Shown one piece after another: positions 786-44,428 of a stretch of DNA of 45,919 nt; within the stretch, counting starts at the first letter, position 1; each line of letters starts with the position of its first letter. Below the pieces are notes generated by a model. That model was not told the DNA's origin. It did not search any database and saw only the letters and a list, made by a program, of their open reading frames with translations. The translations under genes were made by a program, and so were the position numbers. The stretch is from NCBI GenBank assembly GCA_949741215.1, contig CATJLA010000095.1, positions 1 through 45,919 on the forward strand, given 5' to 3'. Origin of the DNA: an uncultured Oscillospiraceae bacterium (GTDB taxonomy: Bacteria > Bacillota > Clostridia > Oscillospirales > Ruminococcaceae).

Positions 786-796
786 GGACGTCGCGC
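786..796 (+). repeat. Dispersed GGACGTCGCGC element, fusA-tuf spacer copy
   Basis: Exact 11-mer GGACGTCGCGC on the plus strand, 19 bp beyond the fusA stop codon. It shares the 17-mer TTGCAGGACGTCGCGCA with the copy after prfA at 37489. The flanking genes run on the minus strand, yet the element keeps the plus-strand orientation seen at the other sites. Confidence 0.75.
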
Positions 797-3069: not shown

Positions 3070-3095
3070 GGGACGTCGCGCAGCGCTTACGTCCC
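3070..3095 (+). repeat. GGGACGTCGCGC element inside a perfect stem-loop
   Basis: GGGACGTCGCGC occupies 3070-3081. Its first seven bases GGGACGT are matched by ACGTCCC at 3089-3095, making a perfect 7-bp stem around a GC-rich 12-base loop. It lies 57 bp beyond the rpsG stop codon in the str operon transcript. Confidence 0.7.
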
Positions 3096-4319: not shown

Positions 4320-4424
4320 GCATTGTTTTCCCCATTGCACTCCAGTTTTCAGGACGTCCTGCCGATTTACAGCCCCGCTCCTCACAACGGCACTCAAAAA
4401 TCACGTCCATCCCCCCAATGATCA

Positions 4425-9250: not shown

Positions 9251-12200
9251 TTAAAACTTATCAGAAAAGTCGTCGTCCTCCCCGTCCAAAAACAGGTCAT
9301 CGCCCGACAAGGTCTTGCTGCCCATCAGCTCCTCCATATCCTCCTCGGGGGGCTCCATGCCCTTTTCCTCGGACGAAGGCGCCTCATCGTCGTCCTCATC
9401 ATCGTCAAAGTTTTTGCCCAGCAGCTCCTCAAACAGGTCCAAAGTGCTTTCTTCCTTATCATCCGGGTCGTCAGGCACCACATCGGGTTCCACATAAGCC
9501 TCATGATCCAGCCCCACGTCACCGTCGTTCTGGAAGGACTGCTGCAAATCCACCTCATTCTTCTCTTTATCCAATACCTTAACATCCAGGCCCAGAGACT
9601 GCAGCTCCTTGATCAGTACCTTAAAGGACTCGGGAATGCCGGACTTCGGCACATTATGGCCCTTTACAATAGCCTCAAAGGTTTTCACACGGCCATTGAT
9701 ATCATCCGACTTCACAGTCATAATCTCCTGTAGGGTATAAGCCGCGCCGTAAGCCTCCAGGGCCCAAACCTCCATCTCACCAAACCGCTGGCCGCCAAAC
9801 TGGGCCTTACCGCCCAAAGGCTGCTGGGTTACCAAAGAGTAAGGTCCGGTAGACCGTGCATGAATCTTATCGTCAACCAAGTGATGCAGCTTCAAAAAGT
9901 ACATATACCCAACGGTTACCCGGTTGTCAAAGGGCTCGCCGGTACGTCCGTCATAAAGCACTGTCTTGCCGTCACTGGGCAGCCCCGCCTGCTCCAGCGC
10001 CGCCCAAATATCCTTCTCGTGGGCGCCGTCAAATACAGGTGTCATCACCTTCCAGCCCAAAGCGGCCGCAGCCCGGCCCAAATGCACCTCCAGCACCTGC
10101 CCGATGTTCATACGGGAAGGTACGCCCAAGGGGTTCAGCACAATATCCAGCGGCGTGCCGTCCGGCAGAAAAGGCATATCCTCCTCCGGCAAAATCCGGG
10201 AAACAACGCCCTTATTTCCATGACGTCCCGCCATCTTGTCGCCTACCGAGATCTTCCGCTTCTGAGCCAAATACACCCGCACCACCATGTTGACATCAGG
10301 GCTCAGCTCGTCACTGTTGTCTCTTGTAAACACCTTTACATCCACGACGATTCCGTACTCGCCGTGCGGCACCTTCAGGGAGGTATCCCGCACCTCTCTG
10401 GCCTTTTCGCCAAAGATTGCCCGCAGCAGCCGCTCCTCAGGAATCAGCTCGGTCTCGCCCTTGGGCGTCACCTTGCCTACCAGAATATCCCCCGGCCGCA
10501 CCTCCGCGCCAATGCGGATAATGCCCCGTTCGTCCAGGTTCGCCAAAGCATCCTCCGAAACGTTGGGAATATCCCGTGTAATCTCCTCCGGTCCCAGCTT
10601 GGTATTCCGGGCCTCAATCTCATGCTTCTCAATATGAATCGAAGTATAAGCGTCCTCCCGAACAATCTTCTCGTTAATCAGAACAGCGTCCTCGTAGTTA
10701 TAACCCTCCCAGGTCATAAACCCGATAAGCATATTCTTGCCCAAGCTGATCTCACCGTTGCAGGTAGCGGGGCCGTCTGCCAGAACCTGGCCCACCTTTA
10801 CCTCCTCACCCTTGGAAACCACGGGCCGCTGGTTGATGCAGGTACCCTGGTTGGAGCCGGCAAACTTGGTCAGCTTGTAAACCTCCAAGGCTCCCTCGTT
10901 GGTGCGGATAGCAATCTCGCAGGCATCCACCCGCTCCACCACACCGTTGTGCTTGGAAAGGGTCACCACGCCGGAATCCACACCCGCTTTATACTCCATG
11001 CCGGTGCCCACAATAGGCGACTGTGTCTTCAGCAGCGGCACAGCCTGACGCTGCATGTTAGCGCCCATCAAAGCACGGTTGGCATCGTCATTTTCCAAAA
11101 AAGGAATCATCGCCGTAGCAACCGAAACTACCATCTTGGGCGAAACATCCATGTAATCCACCCGCTCCCGCTCCATCTCCATGATGGTATCCCGGTAGCG
11201 TACATTTACTCTGGATTTTGCAAAGCAGCCGTTTTCGTCCAAAGGCTCGTTAGCCTGGGCCACTACATATTTATCCTCCACATCGGCAGTCATATAAAGC
11301 ACTTCGTCGGTAACCCGTCCGGTGCTCTTGTCTACCTTGCGGTAAGGTGCCTCAATAAATCCATACTCGTTAATCCGCGCAAAGGATGCCAAATACGAAA
11401 TCAGGCCGATATTCGGTCCTTCCGGCGTCTCAATAGGGCACATCCGTCCATAGTGCGTGTAGTGGACGTCGCGCACCTCGAAGCCCGCGCGGTCACGGGA
11501 CAAACCGCCGGGGCCCAGGGCGGAAAGACGTCTTTTATGGGTAAGCTCCGCCAACGGGTTGGTCTGATCCATAAACTGAGAAAGCGGAGAGGACCCGAAG
11601 AACTCCTTCACCGCCGCCACTACAGGACGAATGTTGATCAGCGCCTGAGGGGTAATCACATCCATATCCTGGGCCTGCAGCATCATCCTGTCCCGAATCA
11701 CCTTCTCCATTCGGGAAAATCCAATGCGGAACTGGTTCTGCAAAAGCTCGCCCACACAGCGGATCCGCCGGTTGCCCAGGTGGTCGATATCATCCACCTC
11801 GCCCACGTCATAATTCAGGTTCATCAGGTAGTTGATGGTGGAAAAAATATCATCCACCGTAATATGCTTGGGAATCAAATCGTTAATCCGGGCAGAAATC
11901 GCTTCCTTAATATCCTCCAGGCTGTCATTAGCCTCCAGAATCTCCTTCAGAATAGAGAACCGCACCTTCTCGTTAACCCCCAGCGCCCGGCCATCCACAT
12001 CGACGAAGTCGGCAAGGTCAACCATACCGTTGGAGATAAGCTTCAGCTCCCGGTTTTCCACCTGAATAAACACGGTATCCACGCCGGCCCGCTCAACCTC
12101 TTCCGCCTGCTCCCGATTCAGCACAGCGCCCGCGTCGAACATCAGCTCGCCGGTTAAGGGGTTGATTACCGGTTTGGCCAGCTGCTTGCCGGTCAACCGG

Positions 12201-13328: not shown

Positions 13329-13340
13329 GGGACGTCGCGC
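13329..13340 (+). repeat. Dispersed GGGACGTCGCGC element, copy upstream of the lipoprotein
   Basis: Exact 12-mer on the plus strand, preceded by a T-run and followed by CTCTCTGC. It is not linked to a stop codon here, which shows the element is not strictly a 3'-end feature. Confidence 0.75.
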
Positions 13341-13415: not shown

Positions 13416-13431
13416 TGTTTCACGTGAAACA
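13416..13431. promoter_or_regulatory. parS-like site 1 (ParB-binding palindrome)
   Basis: Perfect 16-bp palindrome TGTTTCACGTGAAACA, matching the parS consensus bound by ParB/Spo0J. The similarity to the two other copies extends into flanking A/T-rich sequence on both sides (about 13410-13443), here in the opposite orientation. Confidence 0.85.
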
Positions 13432-18132: not shown

Positions 18133-18385
18133 TTCCTTTTACAGGAAACACCCAAATCCAAAATTTTCTTTTTAGGACGTAGCTGCCGCCTTGTTCTCTC
18201 TGCCTTTTGGCCAGGCCCAGGGCAAAGGAGAAATCCTTCCGCCGCCCTAAGGGAAGCTTCAGGGGATTAGCACAGCCATAACAGAAAGCGCTTTCCAAAA
18301 CCAGACGCAGCCTTGTCCCAAAAGCTGCCAAAAGACGATACGGCCTCCCGCTGCCCAGAGGCTTATTCTTCAAAAGCTGCCAAAA

Positions 18386-21497: not shown

Positions 21498-21640
21498 AAA
21501 CCGCGCCTCCCCATTCTGCAAGCTGTTCCACTTATATGAAATCCTCCTGCAAAATATTTCTCCCCCTTTTCGGACGTCGGCGCCGCTTCGCTCTCTCCAA
21601 ACCTCTGCCTCACCCCTGTTTCTCCCACATCTTTTGCCTA

Positions 21641-26000: not shown

Positions 26001-29000
26001 TTCTCCATTGGATGGGATGCTGACTCCAACACCCTTTCTGACTCCTGCTATGACTTTTTAATGAGCGAAGCCCGGGCGCTGAGCTACTTTGCCATTGCCT
26101 CCGGCCAGGTACCCAAGCGCCACTGGCAGCGCCTGAACCGAAGCATGAGCCGCAAGGCCCGCTTCTCCGGCCCTATTTCCTGGACTGGCACCATGTTTGA
26201 GTACTTTATGCCCCACCTTTTTCTTCCGACAGACGAAGGCACCCTGCTGGGAGAGGGCCTTCGCTACGCTATCTGGTGCCAGCGTCACCGAGTGCCCAAG
26301 GGTGTACCCTGGGGTGTTAGTGAAAGCGGCTATGGCGCCTTTGACTCTGCCTTAGGCTACCTGTATAAGGCCCATGGAGTAGAGCTGCTTGCCCAAAAGC
26401 CGGGCATGAACCGGGAGCTTGTTATTTCCCCCTACTCTACCTTTTTGGCATTGCCTTGGGCCCCAAAAATGGCCATGAAAAATTTAAGGGAGATGGAAAA
26501 AATGGGTTTTTCCGGCCGCTACGGCTTTTATGAAAGTGCTGACTTTACCCCCGGCCGCTGTGTTCCCGGCAGCAAACCGGCGGCTGCCCCCTCCAAAAAG
26601 CTTTCCTCCAGGGACGCGGCGCCTCCTTTCCTCCTGGTGCGGGAATATATGGCCCACCACTTGGGGATGAGCTTAGCAGCCGCGGTAAACGCCGCCTTCC
26701 CCGGCAAAATGCACCGCCGCTTTTTGGCCGACCCTCAAATGGGCCGCGCCCGGGAGCTTTTGCAGGAGCGCGCGGGGGACGCTCTCTGGGCAGGCGCTGT
26801 CCGGGAGGAGCCGGAAGCCGCTGCGCCCGCTCCGTCCAAAGAGCCGCCCTTTACCGAAACCTGTGAGCAGATTTCCCTCCGTTCCCCCCGGTGCGCTGTC
26901 CTTTCCAATGGAGGACTCACTGCTTTGTATACCGATAGCGGCTGCAGCTGGCTTGCCGGCTACGGAGCGGACCTTACCAGGCGCTGCCATGATCCTTTGC
27001 GCCGGCCCGCCGGCATATTTGTTCTGCTGGGGCGGGAGGGGGAGCAAAAGCTGAGCCTTACCGCCGCCCCGGAGCAAAGCCTGCCCTTTTTAACTCCTCC
27101 GGCCCAGCCTGTTACCCGCTGCTGCCGGTTTGAAAGCCGTTCTGTTCGCTATGAGCTCCGGCAAAACCGCCTGAAGATGGAGATGACCTGTACCCTGGAC
27201 CCCGCCCTCCCCTGTGAGCAGCGCAGGATCCGGCTGGAAAACTTCTCCGGCAAAACCCAGCTTCTCCTTTACCTGGAGCCCACCCTCTCTCCGGATCGGG
27301 ACTTTACCGCACATCCTGCTTTCTCCCGGCTGTTTGTTACCTCCCGGTATGATGCCGGGGCCAACTGCGCGGTATTCACCCGCACCCCGCGGGAGGGCGC
27401 CCAGCCCCCTGCCCTGGCCATTGGCTTTAAGGAGCCTGTTTCCTTTGGCCTGCAAACCAGGCGGGAGTCACTGCTCCAAGCCCCCTCCGGGCTTACCGGC
27501 CTCTTTTTTTCCAGGCCCTTTGAGGAGCAACAAGCCGGCTCTGTGCCGGACGGCTGCTGCGCCCTTTGCCTGCCTCTGCCCCAAAAAGGCACCGTTTTTG
27601 CTGTGACGTTACTGCTGGCGGCAGGCAAAACCGCTGCGGACGCCGTCAATAACCTGGTAAAACTGCGGCAAAAAGGGGGTGTCAGCAAGCAAACCGCCGC
27701 GGCCTCCCCTCTGTTTGATAACTCCCTAGAGGGCCGGATCGCCTACTCCCTTCTTCCCGGCCTGCTGTTCCGCCGGATGGAATCCCGCCGGCAGTTGGCC
27801 CTGGCGGAAGCAAACCGCCTGGATATCCGCTCTCTGTGGAGCCTTGGCATTTCCGGCGACCTCCCCATTGCAGCCTTACAGCTTTCTAATGGGACGTCAC
27901 AGCAGCAGGAGCGTCTTCTGCAAAGCCTGAAGGCTCACCGTCTTCTCCGCCGCAGCGGCGTCCTGTATGATCTTGCTGTTCTCTACCCTGAAAACAGCGG
28001 CGAGCAGCTCACCTCCTCCTTGGCGGATCTTCTTCTCCGGGAAAACATGGGGGATCTCCTTCGTCAACCCGGAGGCATTCACCTGCTGGAGGCCACCGCT
28101 CCGATCGCTGCCCTGATCCAAAGCGTTGCTTCTCATCTTGTGCCGGAGGACCTGATCCGTCCTCATATTGCACTTCAGCCCTATATTCCTCTAAAAATGC
28201 ACTCCCCGCGCCCTGCTCCTATGCCCAACGGGCAAAATGTTTTAGCGGTGGAGGGCGGCGCTTTCCTGAACGGCGCCTTTTGGGTGGACAGAAGCACTCC
28301 CCTGCCCTTCTCCCATATTCTGGCCAACCACAGCTTCGGCACTTTGATCAGTGACAGCAGCCTGGGCTATACCTGGGGCCTCAACGCCCGGGAAAATAAG
28401 CTCACTCCCTGGGAGAACGACCCCTTTACCGATAACCTGGGCGAGCTTCTCCTCCTGCGGGATCAAACCCGCTGCTACAGCCTTACCCACGGGGCCCGGG
28501 CAGTATTCTCACCGGAAAAAGCCCAATATCTGGGTCAGATTGGCGCACTCTCCTACACTCTCACTCTTTTTGTCCCGGATAAATGGATGGCCAAGGTGAT
28601 GATTCTGGAGCTGGAAAACCAAGGGGACGAGCAGCTGGACCTGGCCTGTGCCTACTACCTGGAGCCCCTGCTGGGGGATTTCCCAAAAAATGCCGCCATT
28701 CCCCGCATCTGGGAGAAAAACGGTATGATATATGCCGAAAACCCCCTTTCCGCCCAGGTTGGCGGCGTCCTCTGCCTTGGTATGGAGCCGGAACAGGATA
28801 TCGCCGCCGAAAAAAGCTTCCGGGTATTGGAGCGTGCCGACTTTCTCTCCGGCCAGTGGAAGCCTTCTCATGAGCCTCAAAGCGTTCCCCATGCAACCGC
28901 CCACCGATGTATCTCCAAAGTTACCCCCCTGCGTCTGCCTCCCAAGTACAAGGGGCGGGTAAAAATCATCCTCTCCTACGGCAAAACCGAACAGGCCGCC

Positions 29001-30455
29001 CGCACTGCCGCAAGCCAGCAGTTTGCAGTACCGTCCCAAAGCATGATTGCAGCGCCGCATTTTCACACCCCTGTTCCCGCTTTGGACGCCTTTCTCAATG
29101 GCTTTGCCCCTCATCAAATCCTTGCGGGCCGGATGCTTGGCAGAACCGGGTTTTACCAGTGCGGCGGGGCCTACGGCTTCCGGGATCAGCTGCAGGACAG
29201 CCTTGCCGCCCTGTGGTTTGCACCTCAGCTTACCCGCATCCACCTGCTGCGGTGCTGTGCCGTCCAGTTTGAACAGGGCGACGTCCTCCACTGGTGGCAT
29301 ATCCTTCCCCAAGAAAAAGGCGGCCTGCGCGGCGCCCGCACCCGTTGCTCCGACGACCTGCTCTGGCTGCCCTATGCTGCCGGAGAATACGTGAAGGCCA
29401 CCGGGGATTATGCCGTCCTGGACGTCCCCATAGCCTGCCTTACCGCCCCGCTTTTAGGGGCCAATGAGCAGGAACGCTACCTGGCGCCGGAGCGTTCCTC
29501 CACAAAGCTCACCGTTTATGAGCACTGCTGCCTTGCTTTGGAAAAAGGCTATACCCTTGGCTCCTTAAACCTTCCTCTCATGGGCTCGGGAGACTGGAAC
29601 GACGGCTTTAACCGGGTAGGCGCAGGCGGCAAGGGCCAAAGCGTGTGGCTGGCCCAGTTTTATGTGACGTCGGTGGACCGGTTTCTCCCCATACTCCGCC
29701 ACAAGCAGGATGCCGCTTTGGAAAAAACCCTGCTGGATCGTAAATCTCAGCTGATCCAGGCCATTGAGCATTCCGGGTGGGACGACAGCTGGTACCTCCG
29801 GGCCTATTATGATGATATGACGCCTCTTGGATCTCTCCAAAGCAGCGGCTGCCAGCTGGATTCCATCACCCAAAGCTTTGCAGCCTTTGCCGGGCTGAAT
29901 AAAAAGCGGACCGAACAGGCTCTAACCGAGTGCTGCCGCCGCCTTGTGGATTACGACCATGGCATCATCCGTCTTTTTACCCCGGATTTCTCCCATTCCA
30001 GCAAGGATCCTGGCTATGGCAAATCCTATCCCCCCGGCATCCGGGAGCACGGCGGCCAGTACACCCACGGGGCAATCTGGCTGATCTGGGCGCTTTTGTC
30101 CCAAAACCGGGCGGAGGATGCCTGGCAGCTTTTGGAGATGGCAAACCCGGCCTCCCGCTGCCAAATTCCGCGCTATTCCCAAAACTATCAGCTGGAGCCT
30201 TATTATATGGCGGCGGACATCTACACCAATCCCAACGCCTACGGCCACGGCGGCTGGAGCCTTTACACCGGTTCCGCCGGTTGGTTTTACCGCATGGTGC
30301 TGGAGGGGCTTTTGGGCTTAGGCCTATTAAATGGTGACGTCCAAACGGTAAGCCCACCTGTTCTTCCCAAAGCTCTTGCCGATTGTAAGCTCAGCCTTAC
30401 CCGGCAGTCGGGGCGGCTTCACATTACCCTGCAGCCCCCAAGCCAAACGGACTGA
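23031..30455 (+). CDS. Cyclic beta-1,2-glucan synthase-like enzyme (GT84 / cyclisation / GH94)
   Basis: A 2474-residue multidomain membrane enzyme of the NdvB/ChvB type, which makes beta-1,2-glucan from a UDP-sugar, cyclises it and trims its length. After an N-terminal cytoplasmic region come membrane segments (about residues 256-296), then the GT84 glycosyltransferase with LDSDT near residue 463 and THRWVRGDWQN near residue 610. More membrane segments lie at about 643-690 and 776-813. The glycoamylase-like cyclisation region starts near residue 873 (NIGLMLLSALAARDFDF, IGWDADSNTLSDSCYD). The C-terminal half has the GH94 phosphorylase-like domain, with the catalytic-Asp motif GSGDWNDGFN near residue 2186. 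The ATG at 23031 follows AGGGAGGG. The frame is intact throughout. The gene is 50 bp upstream of a SpoVAF-like gene, probably in one operon. The product could be an osmoregulated or envelope glucan. Confidence 0.88.
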   Translation: MENNGKKLAARLTRELTALGEYGAFKKEEQQRTPSERWLCDHYKAALREGRQIVRTIQQGEKAKEPVDWEELTQLFCRELVEPQAPLTTETLDRILVKHQLCRSLTGEEFDHLPTLVRAALLHGVYETVFGPTPQGEGESFRERRISYCFTSLAIAESLDYNWLLIRRCETERFLRQDPAGVYPQMTRQSRGEYRRLCTKLGKPLGKTGQEIAASVLSQAKQCKDQGGTGLLWEKQCHVGYYLLQNPRLQREHKLRGLLVLWGPPVLALLVSVLAGFGFRSVLAGILFFFPLWELFRPLCSWAACFRTSGLPLPAVRLPASKALEKSARTLAVISSLMPNPRELPALSRRLERMARANNGAYLTFCLLLDFPPHPLPQSPEDTGDLQAVAEMVQQLNHRLGSERFGLLVRRRAYSKTQNQFIGQERKRGALLELARMLKGDAIDPELLLGEQCFRNIRYLLVLDSDTNLLLEGADAFLSRALHLLNRPVIDQTTRRVVNGYGIFTPRLCSDPEKPVSWFSVMLGGSPGISSYENQTAELGQSIFGQSRFTGKGLIELESFYSLLSGRLPEEQVLSHDILEGEILRTAFIPQIELTEGFPATAASWEARTHRWVRGDWQNSVFLCSRIPPRKIINPIPPLGRYWLWENLRLSLLPPLGIAAVLACLVLPPPPSLWLLVAALGSQIAGELWQSLSLLWNGGMGEALTRRFFGPAPFLPAGLSPLAGGFAKLTLLPSMAVTSLDASLRALFRLRLSHKRLLEWQTAAQTAGKNGWVRYLLSSLFGVLLLLLAPAGYGHLRLTGLLFGAALPFVLLSGKRPPKWQPQMRPEDFKKLREYCSSIWQYFEDLSANRHSFLPPDHLEESPVFREAEHTSPTNIGLMLLSALAARDFDFISSKRLSEFLQNSLTVIEGLESWHGNLYNWYDTKTRQVLAPRFVSSVDSGNFLCCLVTVKEGLKDYLPEEPSLAPLLSRIEQLIARTDVAVFYREDRELFSIGWDADSNTLSDSCYDFLMSEARALSYFAIASGQVPKRHWQRLNRSMSRKARFSGPISWTGTMFEYFMPHLFLPTDEGTLLGEGLRYAIWCQRHRVPKGVPWGVSESGYGAFDSALGYLYKAHGVELLAQKPGMNRELVISPYSTFLALPWAPKMAMKNLREMEKMGFSGRYGFYESADFTPGRCVPGSKPAAAPSKKLSSRDAAPPFLLVREYMAHHLGMSLAAAVNAAFPGKMHRRFLADPQMGRARELLQERAGDALWAGAVREEPEAAAPAPSKEPPFTETCEQISLRSPRCAVLSNGGLTALYTDSGCSWLAGYGADLTRRCHDPLRRPAGIFVLLGREGEQKLSLTAAPEQSLPFLTPPAQPVTRCCRFESRSVRYELRQNRLKMEMTCTLDPALPCEQRRIRLENFSGKTQLLLYLEPTLSPDRDFTAHPAFSRLFVTSRYDAGANCAVFTRTPREGAQPPALAIGFKEPVSFGLQTRRESLLQAPSGLTGLFFSRPFEEQQAGSVPDGCCALCLPLPQKGTVFAVTLLLAAGKTAADAVNNLVKLRQKGGVSKQTAAASPLFDNSLEGRIAYSLLPGLLFRRMESRRQLALAEANRLDIRSLWSLGISGDLPIAALQLSNGTSQQQERLLQSLKAHRLLRRSGVLYDLAVLYPENSGEQLTSSLADLLLRENMGDLLRQPGGIHLLEATAPIAALIQSVASHLVPEDLIRPHIALQPYIPLKMHSPRPAPMPNGQNVLAVEGGAFLNGAFWVDRSTPLPFSHILANHSFGTLISDSSLGYTWGLNARENKLTPWENDPFTDNLGELLLLRDQTRCYSLTHGARAVFSPEKAQYLGQIGALSYTLTLFVPDKWMAKVMILELENQGDEQLDLACAYYLEPLLGDFPKNAAIPRIWEKNGMIYAENPLSAQVGGVLCLGMEPEQDIAAEKSFRVLERADFLSGQWKPSHEPQSVPHATAHRCISKVTPLRLPPKYKGRVKIILSYGKTEQAARTAASQQFAVPSQSMIAAPHFHTPVPALDAFLNGFAPHQILAGRMLGRTGFYQCGGAYGFRDQLQDSLAALWFAPQLTRIHLLRCCAVQFEQGDVLHWWHILPQEKGGLRGARTRCSDDLLWLPYAAGEYVKATGDYAVLDVPIACLTAPLLGANEQERYLAPERSSTKLTVYEHCCLALEKGYTLGSLNLPLMGSGDWNDGFNRVGAGGKGQSVWLAQFYVTSVDRFLPILRHKQDAALEKTLLDRKSQLIQAIEHSGWDDSWYLRAYYDDMTPLGSLQSSGCQLDSITQSFAAFAGLNKKRTEQALTECCRRLVDYDHGIIRLFTPDFSHSSKDPGYGKSYPPGIREHGGQYTHGAIWLIWALLSQNRAEDAWQLLEMANPASRCQIPRYSQNYQLEPYYMAADIYTNPNAYGHGGWSLYTGSAGWFYRMVLEGLLGLGLLNGDVQTVSPPVLPKALADCKLSLTRQSGRLHITLQPPSQTD

Positions 30456-31921: not shown

Positions 31922-32104
31922 CCCCCCAGGCTGTCTTCCCACTGCGCAGCTGTTTTGGCAGCGGCTGTAATCTCAAAGCACACCGTTTTGTAACCCTAAG
32001 CCCGCTTTTTGTTTCAGGACGCAACAGCCGCCCTATTTTCCCGGGCTCCCCCAAAAAACACTGCAAATCCCGCGCCGCTTTCGTCCCTAAAGCCAAAAGA
32101 GAGC
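31922..32104. other. Spacer after the SpoVAF-like gene
   Basis: Contains a variant of the dispersed element (AGGACGCAACAGCCGCC near 32016) and a short CAGCTG-type stem near 31945; no clear terminator with a T-run and no gene. Confidence 0.4.
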
Positions 32105-34915: not shown

Positions 34916-35439
34916 TGTTTATTTCCTCCCGTCATAAAATTTCCGCAGCCTCAGCGGCATACAGGCGTCTTTATTTTAAGTACAATCCTGCAGCCTAAGG
35001 CTCTGGTGTTTCTCCATAAAATACATTATATCAAATTTCCCACAAAAGGGCTATAGCTTTTTTGGTCTTTTTTTATCTTTTTTAGGGACATGACTGCCGT
35101 TTTCTGTTCTTCTGCCTCTCCAACACGGACTTCTTCATCATTTTCAGCTTTTCAGGCTTATGTATTGGCCTGCCCATCGCTTTGTTTCCCCCAATACACA
35201 GGCCTGAAAGGAAAATCCAACGAAAAAAAGCCCATCCCCTTTTCGATCCTGCATAAAAACAATCATACAGCTATCATCATAGGCGCCAGATTTCCACATA
35301 TACAACAGAAGAAAGTGAAAAATATTACGGCAGGGCAGCCCCCATGTAAAGCCTTAAAAAGAGCCGGAAAAGAACCCCCTTGCGCCCCGTCCCAAAAGCA
35401 CAGCCCCCAGCAAAGGGTGCAAAGGGAGAACCACCCCCC
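34916..35439. other. Intergenic region with a large inverted repeat
   Basis: About 520 bp without a gene. It holds the aminopeptidase leader and promoter (-10 at 35025-35030), a variant of the dispersed element (GGGACATGACTGCCG near 35085) and an imperfect 19-bp inverted repeat at 35150-35209. Nothing else was recognised. Confidence 0.55.
35150..35209. repeat. Imperfect 19-bp inverted repeat
   Basis: The arm at 35150-35168 (TTTCAGGC then TGTATTGG) matches the reverse complement of 35191-35209 at 17 of 19 positions, with a 22-nt loop. It could be a terminator-like or mobile-element end structure, but no adjacent T-run or transposase is seen. Confidence 0.5.
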
Positions 35440-37488: not shown

Positions 37489-37500
37489 AGGACGTCGCGC
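37489..37500 (+). repeat. Dispersed element, prfA-GNAT junction
   Basis: AGGACGTCGCGC, starting 12 bp after the prfA stop codon and 39 bp before the next start codon. Shares the 17-mer TTGCAGGACGTCGCGCA with the copy at 786. Confidence 0.8.
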
Positions 37501-37538
37501 AGGCGGGACACTGAAATACACAAAGGGAGGAACTCTGC

Positions 37539-37994
37539 ATGGATGGGGAAACTTACTGCCTGAAGCGGCTGGATGAAAAAGCGGCGGACGAAATCCGGGA
37601 GCTGTTTGTGGGAGTTTTTACCAAGGAGCCGTGGAACGACGATTGGTCCGATGAAAACCAGCTGCAGCTGTACCTGCATGATTTGATTGGGCAGAATAAT
37701 TCCCTGACCTTTGGACTGTATGAGGAAACCAGGCTGATTGGGATCTCAATGGGGCATATCAGGCACTGGTATACCGGCACCGAGTACTATATTGACGAGC
37801 TGTGCATCCGTACGGACAAGCAGGGAAAAGGCGTGGGAACGCTGTTTTTAAGTCAGATAGAACATGCCTGTAAAAAGCTGGAGCTGACCCATATTTTCCT
37901 GCTGACAGAAGATACTGTACCGGCGTTTTCGTTTTATCAAAAATGTGGGTTCTATGAGCTGAAGCATAACGCCGCATTTGCCAAAAAGCTATAG
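37539..37994 (+). CDS. GNAT family N-acetyltransferase (first of three)
   Basis: A 151-residue acetyl-CoA-dependent acetyltransferase. The acetyl-CoA pyrophosphate loop is QGKGVG in IRTDKQGKGVGTLFL near residue 91, followed by the typical C-terminal AFSFYQKCGFYE. The layout resembles small-molecule acetyltransferases such as the aminoglycoside AAC(6') group, but the acceptor cannot be inferred. The ATG at 37539 follows AGGGAGG. It lies between prfA and another acetyltransferase, each junction carrying the dispersed element. Confidence 0.9.
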   Translation: MDGETYCLKRLDEKAADEIRELFVGVFTKEPWNDDWSDENQLQLYLHDLIGQNNSLTFGLYEETRLIGISMGHIRHWYTGTEYYIDELCIRTDKQGKGVGTLFLSQIEHACKKLELTHIFLLTEDTVPAFSFYQKCGFYELKHNAAFAKKL

Positions 37995-38008
37995 CACGGC
38001 AGGCCTGT

Positions 38009-38020
38009 GGGACGTCGCGC
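38009..38020 (+). repeat. Dispersed element, GNAT-GNAT junction
   Basis: Exact GGGACGTCGCGC, 14 bp after the first GNAT stop codon. Flanking GGCAG (37999-38003) and CTGCC (38031-38035) could enclose it in a stem. Confidence 0.8.
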
Positions 38021-38057
38021 CTAAGATAAGCTGCCGGGCATAAAAAGGGGGCAAAGC

Positions 38058-38585
38058 ATGATACTGGAAACAGAAAGACTGTATTTGCGTAAGCTGGAGC
38101 AGCTTGATTTTAATGCCCTGTGCAAAATATTGCAGGATGAAGAAGTCATGTATGCTTACGAGGGCGCCTTTTGTGACGAGGAGGTCCAGGAATGGCTGGA
38201 TAGGCAGCTTGCCCGCTACCAAAAATGGGGTTTTGGTTTATGGGCGGTTGTTTTGAAGGAAACAGGGGAAATGATCGGGCAGTGCGGCCTTACCATGCAG
38301 CCGTGGAAAGATAAGGAAGTGCTTGAAATAGGCTACCTTTTTCAGCGGGAGCATTGGCACAAAGGCTATGCCATTGAGGCCGCAAAAGCCTGTAAGCAAT
38401 ACGCCTTTGAAGCCTTGCAGGCAAGGGAGGTCTGCTCGATTATCAGGGATACCAATATTCCCTCTCAGAACGTTGCCCTGAAAAACGGCATGATAAAAGC
38501 CGACAGCTGGATAAAGCATTATCGGGGGGTGGATATGCCCCATGATCGCTACGTTGTACAGCGGCCTGCTTCATCGTTAAAGTAG
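38058..38585 (+). CDS. GNAT family N-acetyltransferase, RimJ/RimL-like (second of three)
   Basis: A 175-residue acetyltransferase whose start MILETERLYLRKLEQLD is typical of the RimJ/RimL subgroup that acetylates protein N-termini or small molecules. EIGYLFQREHWHKGYAIEAAKA contains the cofactor-binding loop, and IRDTNIPSQNVALKNGM is the usual late motif. The ATG at 38058 follows an AGGGGGC site. The partner substrate is unknown; location beside prfA and a tRNA-modification gene hints at, but does not prove, a role near translation. Confidence 0.9.
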   Translation: MILETERLYLRKLEQLDFNALCKILQDEEVMYAYEGAFCDEEVQEWLDRQLARYQKWGFGLWAVVLKETGEMIGQCGLTMQPWKDKEVLEIGYLFQREHWHKGYAIEAAKACKQYAFEALQAREVCSIIRDTNIPSQNVALKNGMIKADSWIKHYRGVDMPHDRYVVQRPASSLK

Positions 38586-38601
38586 GTGGACATGGGCCTG
38601 C

Positions 38602-38613
38602 GGGACGTCGCCG
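38602..38613 (+). repeat. Dispersed element variant, GNAT-tsaC junction
   Basis: GGGACGTCGCCG, matching ten of the twelve consensus bases from the left, 16 bp after the second GNAT stop codon. Confidence 0.75.
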
Positions 38614-38646
38614 GGATAAAAATAGAAGAAGAGGCGTAAAAATAGG

Positions 38647-39708
38647 ATGTTGTTAGAAAAAAAGACAGAGCTTGTAAAAATAGACGACCCTGAAAACCAC
38701 CCCTGTGAAATTGCCAGGGCGGCTGAAATTCTGCAAAAGGGCGGGCTGGTGGCTTTTCCTACCGAGACGGTGTATGGGCTGGGTGCCAACGGGCTGAACC
38801 CGGCAGCAACAGCCTCTATTTTTGCGGCCAAGGGGCGGCCCCAGGATAACCCGCTGATTGTGCATATTGCAGTGCCGTCCCAAATGGAGGCGCTGGCAAG
38901 GGAGATACCCCACAGCGCCTGGAAGCTGGCAGAGCGGTTTTGGCCCGGGCCGCTGACTATGATTCTGAAAAAAAGGCCGGTGGTGCCGGATGTAACCTCC
39001 GGCGGGCTGGATACAGTGGCGATCCGGCTGCCCTCCCATCCGGTGGCACGGGCGCTGATTGCCAAAAGCGGCGTGCCGGTTGCGGCGCCCTCGGCCAATC
39101 TTTCCGGCAGCCCAAGCCCTACTACGGCACAGCACTGTGTTAAGGATCTAACCGGCCGGGTGGATATGATTCTGGACGGCGGCCGGTGCGGGGTGGGGGT
39201 GGAATCCACTGTAATTACCTTGACGGGAGAGCTCCCGGTGGTGCTGCGCCCCGGCTTTGTAACCCCCGAGGAGCTGGAAGAAGTGCTTGGAAAAGTACTG
39301 GTGGACCCGGCTGTAACCCGTCAGCTGGAACAGGGGCGGCAGGCGGCCTCCCCTGGGATGAAGTATAAGCATTACGCCCCGGCAGCCAGGGTGGTGCTGC
39401 TTTTGGGTACAACGCAGCAGTTTTGCCGCTATGTGAACCAAAAGGCCCAAACCGAACCAGGGGTTTTTGCTTTGGGCTTTGGCCCGGAGCAGCAGGATTT
39501 AACCGTACCCTTTGAGCGGCTGGGCGAAACCGGAGAGGATCAGGCCGCCCGCCTGTTTGACTGCCTGCGCCGGCTGGACGAACGGGGAGCCAAAACCGTG
39601 TATGCCCGCTGCCCGGAGCCTAAAGGGGTGGGGCTGGCGGTGTATAACCGGCTGATCCGCGCGGCAGGATTTACTTTGGTAGAGCTATCCGCGGCGGGGC
39701 TGGCATAA
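38647..39708 (+). CDS. Threonylcarbamoyl-AMP synthase (Sua5/YwlC type)
   Basis: Makes threonylcarbamoyl-AMP from threonine, bicarbonate and ATP, the first step of the t6A modification at position 37 of tRNAs reading ANN codons. The 353-residue protein is the long Sua5 form: the YrdC domain (FPTETVYGLG near residue 40, KGRPQDNPLI, PSANLSGSPSPTTA) followed by a C-terminal Sua5 domain beginning around the SPGMKYKHYAP linker that closes over the active site. The start codon at 38647 has only a weak AAGAGG-type site. The TsaB, TsaD and TsaE partners are not in the window. Confidence 0.95.
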   Translation: MLLEKKTELVKIDDPENHPCEIARAAEILQKGGLVAFPTETVYGLGANGLNPAATASIFAAKGRPQDNPLIVHIAVPSQMEALAREIPHSAWKLAERFWPGPLTMILKKRPVVPDVTSGGLDTVAIRLPSHPVARALIAKSGVPVAAPSANLSGSPSPTTAQHCVKDLTGRVDMILDGGRCGVGVESTVITLTGELPVVLRPGFVTPEELEEVLGKVLVDPAVTRQLEQGRQAASPGMKYKHYAPAARVVLLLGTTQQFCRYVNQKAQTEPGVFALGFGPEQQDLTVPFERLGETGEDQAARLFDCLRRLDERGAKTVYARCPEPKGVGLAVYNRLIRAAGFTLVELSAAGLA

Positions 39709-39726
39709 AATAACCATGGGGCTTTG

Positions 39727-39738
39727 GGGACGTCGCGC
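39727..39738 (+). repeat. Dispersed element, tsaC-GNAT junction
   Basis: Exact GGGACGTCGCGC, 18 bp after the synthase stop codon. Downstream GTACGTC followed by TTTT near 39775 can pair with GACGT, giving a terminator-like fold. Confidence 0.8.
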
Positions 39739-39802
39739 CCGCCTGCGTGCCTGCGCACATGGAGAGCGGTGTGTACGTCTTTTATTCAGGAGGGTTGTAT
39801 GT

Positions 39803-40249
39803 ATGATCATTAGGAAGGCAGTTCGTACGGACGCAGAGGATTTGAAGGAATTATACTTTGATTATCTGACAAAATATCCGCCAAAAGAGGAGCAGAACAT
39901 GGACTTATGGCGGCAGCTTCTTGATCAATTTGAGAAAGACGGCAGGATGTACCTGCTGGTTGCGGAGGAGGACGGCAGGGTGGTTTCTTCGGTGCAGATG
40001 GCCATTATTGAGGGCTTGACCCATAATGTCCGCCCCTTTGGGGTAATTGAAAATGTAGTAACTCATATTCAGTACAGAAACAGGGGCTGTGCTTCCGCAC
40101 TGCTGGAGAAAGCGACAGAAATAGCAAAGGAGCATAAATGCTATAAGGTTTTTCTGGAAACCGGCTCCAACAAAGAAAGCGCGCTGAATTTTTACAGAAA
40201 AAACGGCTTTGCAATAGATGAAAAGCACTCCTGCTTAAAACGGCTGTAA
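39803..40249 (+). CDS. GNAT family N-acetyltransferase (third of three)
   Basis: A 148-residue acetyltransferase starting MIIRKAVRTDAEDLKEL. The cofactor loop is in VTHIQYRNRGCASALLEKA and the late motif is NFYRKNGFAIDEK. The ATG at 39803 follows AGGAGGG; a 29-codon upstream reading runs through the dispersed element and is rejected. It sits between the threonylcarbamoyl-AMP synthase and coaE. Substrate unknown. Confidence 0.9.
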   Translation: MIIRKAVRTDAEDLKELYFDYLTKYPPKEEQNMDLWRQLLDQFEKDGRMYLLVAEEDGRVVSSVQMAIIEGLTHNVRPFGVIENVVTHIQYRNRGCASALLEKATEIAKEHKCYKVFLETGSNKESALNFYRKNGFAIDEKHSCLKRL

Positions 40250-40287
40250 AGCAGGAGACGCTTTTAAGCAAAGCTATTGAGTCTATG

Positions 40288-40303
40288 GACGCAGTTACGT
40301 CCC
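40288..40303. repeat. Dispersed-element variant folded as a hairpin, GNAT-coaE junction
   Basis: GGACG (40288-40292), six-base loop, CGTCC (40299-40303): a short stem carrying the left half of the element and its complement, comparable to the stem-loop at 3070-3095. Confidence 0.55.
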
Positions 40304-42930: not shown

Positions 42931-42990
42931 AAAAGAGCAGTCATGTCCCCCCACACAAGGCTTTGGGACGTGACTGCTCCGTTTTATTTT
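42931..42990. terminator. Bidirectional terminator between the S1-domain gene and rarA
   Basis: GAGCAGTCATGTCCC (42935-42949) pairs with GGGACGTGACTGCTC (42965-42979), 14 of 15 bases plus a G-U pair. T-rich sequence lies on both outer sides (TTTTATTTTT rightwards, TTTTGTTC leftwards). The right arm begins with GGGACGT, the left part of the dispersed element. Confidence 0.85.
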
Positions 42991-44276: not shown

Positions 44277-44428
44277 GAGTCCCCCTCCTTTTGCTGCTGT
44301 AATGTGAAAAGAGCCGCCGCAAGTGGTTTGCAGCGGCTGGCTTTCAGTTTTGTTTTTAAGACGTCGTTGGGCTTTGTGCCTGCCTGTGTTCTGTGCAAAA
44401 GAGGAAGGCACTTTTGTCCCAAAAAGGC
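44277..44428. other. glyA-rarA spacer with a dispersed-element variant
   Basis: Contains AAGACGTCGTTG near 44359 (plus strand), a loose variant of the dispersed element, and TTTTGTCCCAAAAAG near 44412, similar to a sequence between coaE and the lytic transglycosylase gene. No gene and no strong terminator. Confidence 0.4.

Follow-up and report, generated by a model that had tools for sequence, protein, structure and literature searches.

The window analysed here, 45,919 nucleotides long, is a contig (C95) of the genome of an uncultured Oscillospiraceae bacterium (G000; assembly of 2.33 Mb in 192 contigs, 88% complete). In its part from 37,489 to 40,303, prfA is followed by genes for two GNAT proteins, a Sua5-type threonylcarbamoyl-AMP synthase, a third GNAT protein and CoaE, as an earlier reading of the sequence had named them. 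This sequence-only reading had also described a short element, GGACGTCGCGC, at all five junctions of the series, and the element is present at each of them. The exact 11-mer lies on the plus strand at 37490..37500, 12 bp past the prfA stop codon (18.7 bits in the matrix search described below), at 38010..38020, 15 bp past the stop of the first GNAT gene (23.2 bits), and, with full flanks, at 39728..39738, 19 bp past the stop of the Sua5-type gene (30.7 bits). A minus-strand match of 17.6 bits overlaps the first of these sites, with GACGTC in common. The junction after the second GNAT gene carries the weak form GGACGTCGCCG (38603..38613, plus strand), which has two mismatches to the 11-mer and lies 17 bp past the stop; its plus-strand score falls below the 12-bit listing, and an overlapping minus-strand match reaches 13.6 bits. 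At the fifth junction, between the last GNAT gene and coaE, GGACGCAGTTACGTCC spans 40287-40302, 37 bp past the stop. The inverted GGACG/CGTCC pair reported there is composed of a strong minus-strand half-site, GGACGTAACTGC (40291..40302, 25.2 bits), and a GGACG at 40287. Exact plus-strand copies were likewise confirmed at the three distant positions 786, 3071 and 13330.

The 11-mer represents one of several forms of a degenerate motif that has an orientation and is dispersed over the whole genome. It occurs 87 times in the 2.33 Mb, compared with 0 occurrences of the same word reversed but not complemented, and 76 of the copies are intergenic and 11 coding, although intergenic DNA makes up only 18% of the sequence. 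The sequence-only reading had held that random counts or an equal density inside genes would speak against a functional element; the genome-wide counts are instead far above chance and concentrated between genes. Aligned exact copies display base preferences from about -20 to +40, of which the strongest is a T-tract at -5 to -3, with soft positions at +12 to +17, +21 to +24 and +27 to +30. Unbiased counts of intergenic words revealed the related words GGACGTAACTGC, GGACGTAAGCGC, GGACGTCCTGC and GGACGGGACTGC as strongly over-represented; all fit a pattern of GGACG and SNGC set 2 or 3 bp apart, and share the T-tract and the soft flank. The motif can thus be written as YTTTTNG-GGACG-N2/3-SNGC with about 20 weakly preferred bases on its 3' side. 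Its spacer-3 form with T-tract is found 307 times in the whole genome and 6 times in reverse.

The wider motif was sought in 1.25 Mb of the genome (54%), mainly contigs with exact copies to which a few others were added, and genes were called by a simple codon-pair model that assigned 82% to coding and 18% to intergenic sequence. Two matrices were trained on intergenic sites and applied with a cut-off of >16 bits, with the reversed matrices as a control. They returned 986 matches and 81 with the reversed matrices, from which about 1,700 sites are expected genome-wide, or roughly one per 1.2 kb; the choice of contigs may slightly inflate this total. The spacer-3 words are nevertheless proportionate to the sampling, with 176 of the 307 in the part that was read. 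Because intergenic DNA served to train the matrices, the argument is carried by the exact-word counts and the shuffling tests given below, and not by the matrix totals alone. A short word in such numbers, in the hundreds to thousands and far beyond random expectation, is what an uptake sequence would display.

Sites occur between genes and inside them, along the full length of genes and in both orientations. The 310 coding matches among the 986 are distributed uniformly from gene start to gene end, with 163 sense and 147 antisense. Exact copies are equally balanced relative to genes (24 in the same orientation, 27 opposite, 11 divergent and 10 convergent). The description as a junction element is too narrow for a motif that is also found throughout genes. 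The fixed distance to stop codons proposed with it stands as a tendency: of 322 intergenic sites downstream of a co-directional gene, 139 are found 0-29 bp after its stop codon, and the 5' edge of the site peaks at 10-29 bp. It is no rule, as sites are also present in divergent intergenic regions and within genes.

This peak, together with the five junctions of the window, is what would be expected of an RNA-level signal at gene ends, such as a terminator or a processing or stability element. An RNA signal does not explain the balanced orientation, nor the antisense and mid-gene copies on both strands that exceed codon expectation. The hairpin suggested by the GGACG/CGTCC pairs was rejected, since mutual information over 751 sites reveals neighbouring-base effects only and no base-pair covariation. 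A search of the window against Rfam matched neither the motif nor anything else. Moreover, inverted pairs of sites are unlike intrinsic terminators because on either strand the T-tract stands upstream of the inverted repeat and not downstream of it. Neither conserved pairing nor a transcript-bound orientation was thus found, and we regard a signal in RNA, including the processing, stability or pause signal considered earlier, as very improbable.

Strand balance also bears on a role as a guide of recombination or segregation. Words of the type of Chi or of the FtsK-orienting polar sequences (KOPS) are skewed along the replichores. The motif resembles them as a short, oriented and frequent word, but its plus- and minus-strand counts are balanced within most stretches, skew being judged within contigs in this fragmented assembly, and its intergenic preference is strong. 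Without the strand skew of Chi or KOPS, such a function is scarcely credible. Presence in genes and between them, on both strands and with no replichore skew as far as it can be judged within contigs, agrees with an uptake sequence. The same is true of the fairly even spacing of about 1 kb. Neighbouring clusters of sites are separated by 1.2 kb on average, with less variation than random placement would give (coefficient of variation 0.78 vs 0.85 +/- 0.02), and the longest site-free gap in the 1.25 Mb is 8.3 kb.

The copies within genes are far more numerous than synonymous codon usage would produce. After shuffling of synonymous codons within each gene, the 289 coding matches above 16 bits were reduced to 28, the 38 above 24 bits to 1.4, and the 11 exact 11-mers to 0.2; the coding motif is 9-13 times commoner than under such shuffling. 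This excess implies that the motif accumulated at the level of DNA, even at a cost to codon choice. Among 42 coding sites that could be aligned to the gene of a relative, some of the lower-scoring of which may be chance matches, 37 have no gap at the core, and most coding copies have therefore not arrived as insertions. Accumulation in coding sequence beyond codon expectation, by substitution and not by insertion, is again the behaviour of an uptake sequence.

These alignments also bear on the possibility that very short mobile elements swarm through the genome and have the half-sites as their terminal inverted repeats. Like repetitive extragenic palindromic (REP) sequences, bacterial interspersed mosaic elements (BIME) and miniature inverted-repeat transposable elements (MITE), the motif has many copies, prefers intergenic DNA and forms inverted pairs near gene ends, with convergent pairs 24 to ~100 bp in extent and sites close to stop codons. 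It differs from these repeats in the absence of hairpin covariation, in having little clonal similarity past the motif and in coding copies that are mostly gap-free. Of the 670 intergenic sites, no more than 66 are similar to a second site over at least 50 bp, the motif itself accounting for some of this resemblance, and at least 90% of the intergenic copies have nothing in common with other copies beyond the motif. Terminal repeats were rejected on this low clonal similarity and on inspection by eye, which revealed no target duplications, and the true clonal repeats of the genome (~150 bp) look different. With neither sequence shared beyond the core nor arrival by insertion, a MITE- or REP-like swarm is improbable, and the miniature mobile repeat suggested by the sequence-only reading is disfavoured. 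What remains of its interpretation is the protein-binding site, which fits a linear, oriented motif in double-stranded DNA, hard at its core and soft in its flanks.

The comparison with related genomes, which had been proposed as a further check, indicates that the motif is restricted to one lineage. It was not found beyond chance in 100 relatives, 394 members of the order or 397 members of the family (the sets overlap), and the spacer-3 form with T-tract was not above background in 396 other genomes of the family. By PrfA, the nearest named relatives are Oscillospirales of ~75-78% identity, such as Ruminococcaceae bacterium Marseille-P2935 and Merdimmobilis hominis; by RpoB, the nearest is genome G041 (83%). 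All relatives compared belong to other genera, a member of the same genus not being among them. Two genomes of another family (f7), G066 and G090, contain 17 exact words each, which looked like conservation; 24 of the 25 sites that were read lie inside genes, and the words were set aside as coding coincidence. A link to viruses was likewise discarded, as 92 stretches in IMG/VR have a single match each to a 14-base form, which was treated as chance.

The genomic signature described above matches that of the DNA uptake sequences of Pasteurellaceae and Neisseriaceae, and for this reason we favour, by a modest measure, the reading of the motif as a genome-wide word of the uptake-signal type. The signature comprises a large number of degenerate copies, their dispersal at near-even spacing, strand neutrality, excess over synonymous-codon expectation, coding copies mostly free of insertion and lineage restriction; genes for ComEC, DprA and a pilus assembly of the competence type are present as well. 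That uptake is driven by the motif, and which protein reads it, we infer from these features. The recognition word would consist of the hard GGACG core, the spacer of 2 or 3 bp and SNGC, with the T-tract on its 5' side and soft T- or C-rich positions on its 3' side. A surface protein of the competence pilus would recognise it on incoming DNA, so that DNA of the same species would be taken up preferentially. Copies would then accumulate through point mutation and recombination of the preferred DNA, most freely between genes and, inside genes, where codons permit.

The closest parallel is the uptake signal sequence (USS) of Haemophilus influenzae, with copies ~1 kb apart, an indispensable inner core, softer AT-tracts and evolution by point mutation (PMC7811141). 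The motif shares with the USS of Pasteurellaceae the hard core, soft flanks (AT- or T-tracts), a density of about one per kb, presence in genes and between them, and an origin by point mutation (PMC7811141); closely spaced complementary pairs occur there too (PMC1852404). It differs in its unrelated sequence, in its host from the Bacillota, in pairs that are not terminator-like, and in its core, which is bipartite, has a spacer of 2 or 3 bp and occurs in several sub-forms. With the DNA uptake sequence (DUS) of Neisseriaceae, present in about 1,900 copies in Neisseria meningitidis (PMC7811141), it has in common a short core of ~10-12 bp and genome-wide dispersal. The sequences are again unrelated. 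DUS dialects exist across the Neisseriaceae (PMC3630211), whereas the relatives examined here lack this word and the two that were sampled lack another dispersed one.

Sequence-specific DNA uptake is documented in two families only, both Proteobacteria, and most other competent bacteria tested are indifferent to the sequence of the DNA that they take up (PMC7811141). A literature search that covered few subscription journals yielded no uptake sequence reported from Bacillota, Firmicutes or Clostridia, and the 11-mer GGACGTCGCGC was not mentioned in the literature searched. There is about an even chance that the motif represents a third, independently evolved uptake specificity, the first in Bacillota (Oscillospirales), of recent origin and absent from the nearest sampled genera, to which the unusual bipartite core with its tolerance of two spacer lengths would belong. 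If so, transformation with a preference for the species' own DNA evolved once more, among gut-type anaerobes in which the exchange of genes has hardly been studied. Since motif-free nearest relatives are available for comparison, the system would bear on the open question of how uptake words start.

The machinery for uptake is present in part. Besides ComEC and DprA, the genome encodes a T2SSE ATPase at a contig edge and a GspF/ComGB-type (T2SSF) protein, whose gene is followed by those of four small proteins, each with one hydrophobic segment (L297:2592-5243, contig C127). Two or three of these have weak similarity to the minor pilin ComGG, far below the curated cut-off. One of the four contains DUF4860 (PF16152), and they are candidate minor pilins of a competence pilus. 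In G041 and G059, which lack the motif, T2SSF is absent and T2SSE is detected only below cut-off. The gene complement of G041, with ComEA and no T2SSF, contrasts with that of the source genome, which has ComEC, DprA and pilus genes and no ComEA above cut-off.

Several observations weigh against an uptake function. G004, G032 and G047 have pilus genes yet no motif, and the association of pilus and motif is therefore suggestive only. No canonical ComEA above cut-off was found in the 88%-complete assembly, where the sole match is an HHH stretch in a 721-residue frame; either the assembly is incomplete in this respect or another receptor is in use. The core is more heterogeneous than that of a classical USS or DUS. 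Two sampled relatives lack a dispersed dialect, unlike Neisseriaceae: a comparable word was found neither in 361 kb of G041 nor in 400 kb of G004, where the top words look like a CRISPR array. Finally, uptake leaves unexplained both the side on which the T-tract stands and the excess of convergent pairs, as non-palindromic intergenic pairs are about six times more often convergent than divergent (146 vs 25).

This last excess is explained more naturally by bridging, which is the main reason to consider that the sites are bound by an abundant intracellular DNA-binding protein of the lineage, either nucleoid-associated or loop-forming. Such a protein would read the half-sites and bridge convergent pairs around genes, and the sites would be kept by selection. 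The linear, protein-type motif with its long soft footprint and the position of the 5' edges near gene ends are consistent with it as well. On the other hand, ~1,700 sites, hundreds of them inside genes, in both orientations and at a cost to codon choice, would be unusual for a sequence-specific chromosomal protein, and no candidate protein was identified. Pair spacing is not clearly phased with the helix either. Peaks near 24, 44, 62, 71 and 81 bp looked periodic, but the period is unstable when the 24/25-bp class is left out (p about 0.01), and helical phasing is not claimed. We consider a chromosomal protein the main alternative to uptake, possible but unlikely; it would be a new and very abundant one.

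Within the window, the six looser versions noted earlier all correspond to matrix matches (14-35 bits). These are, on the plus strand, a GGACGTAGCTGC form with full flanks at 18175..18186 (34.9 bits), a GGACGTCGGCGC form at 21572..21583 (20.7 bits), a GGACGCAACAGC form at 32017..32028 (32.5 bits) with a convergent minus-strand partner that ends at 32086 (16.2 bits), a GGACATGACTGC form with full flanks at 35086..35097 (35.0 bits), GGACGTGACTGC at 42966-42977 (28.9 bits) and the weak form AGACGTCGTTGG at 44359..44370 (14.3 bits). GGACGTGACTGC is one of two half-sites in 42937..42977, the other being GGACATGACTGC on the minus strand (42937-42948, 22.5 bits), and AGACGTCGTTGG is surpassed by GGACAAAAGTGC at 44408-44419 on the minus strand (20.8 bits). 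The exact copy at 786..796 is intergenic (24.2 bits), and that at 13330..13340, intergenic upstream of rpoB, has full flanks (33.3 bits). The copy at 3071 belongs to a 24-bp convergent pair, GGACGTCGCGC-A-GCGCTTACGTCC (3071..3094), with its plus half at 3071-3081 (16.4 bits) and its minus half at 3083-3094 (26.0 bits). Additional intergenic sites are a GGACGTCCTGC form at 4352..4362 on the plus strand (23.2 bits) and a GGACGGGGCGCA form at 35381..35392 on the minus strand (24.0 bits). Coding sequence contains GGACGTCACAGC at 27892..27903 on the plus strand (21.4 bits) and GGACGGTACTGC at 29025..29036 on the minus strand (21.7 bits). A further exact GGACGTCGCGC, not recorded by the sequence-only reading, lies in rpoB (11464-11474) and is attributed to coding coincidence, because distant relatives without the motif carry the same word.

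The genome contains two other dispersed sequences. The exact parS-like palindrome TGTTTCACGTGAAACA is present in 54 copies in the 1.25 Mb, 52 of them intergenic, and in the window at 13416, 15364 and 41675; many copies sit within a longer palindrome, GAACAAnTGTTTCACGTGAAACAnTTGTTC. None was found in the samples of G041 and G004 (361 kb and 400 kb). The usual number of parS sites is a handful near an origin, far below 54, and the copies of TGTTTCACGTGAAACA could form a chromosome-wide system of ParB- or Noc-like sites. The second is a clonal repeat of ~120-190 bp with (AATAGTG)n-like heptamers and an inverted repeat of the GGTACGTTCCTTGCAGGAACG type; it is often bordered by the parS-like palindrome. 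It is found at L061:12870-15847, L072:8449-8908, L108:7151-7388, L131:8724-9748 and other loci, and represents a true MITE-like family of this genome.

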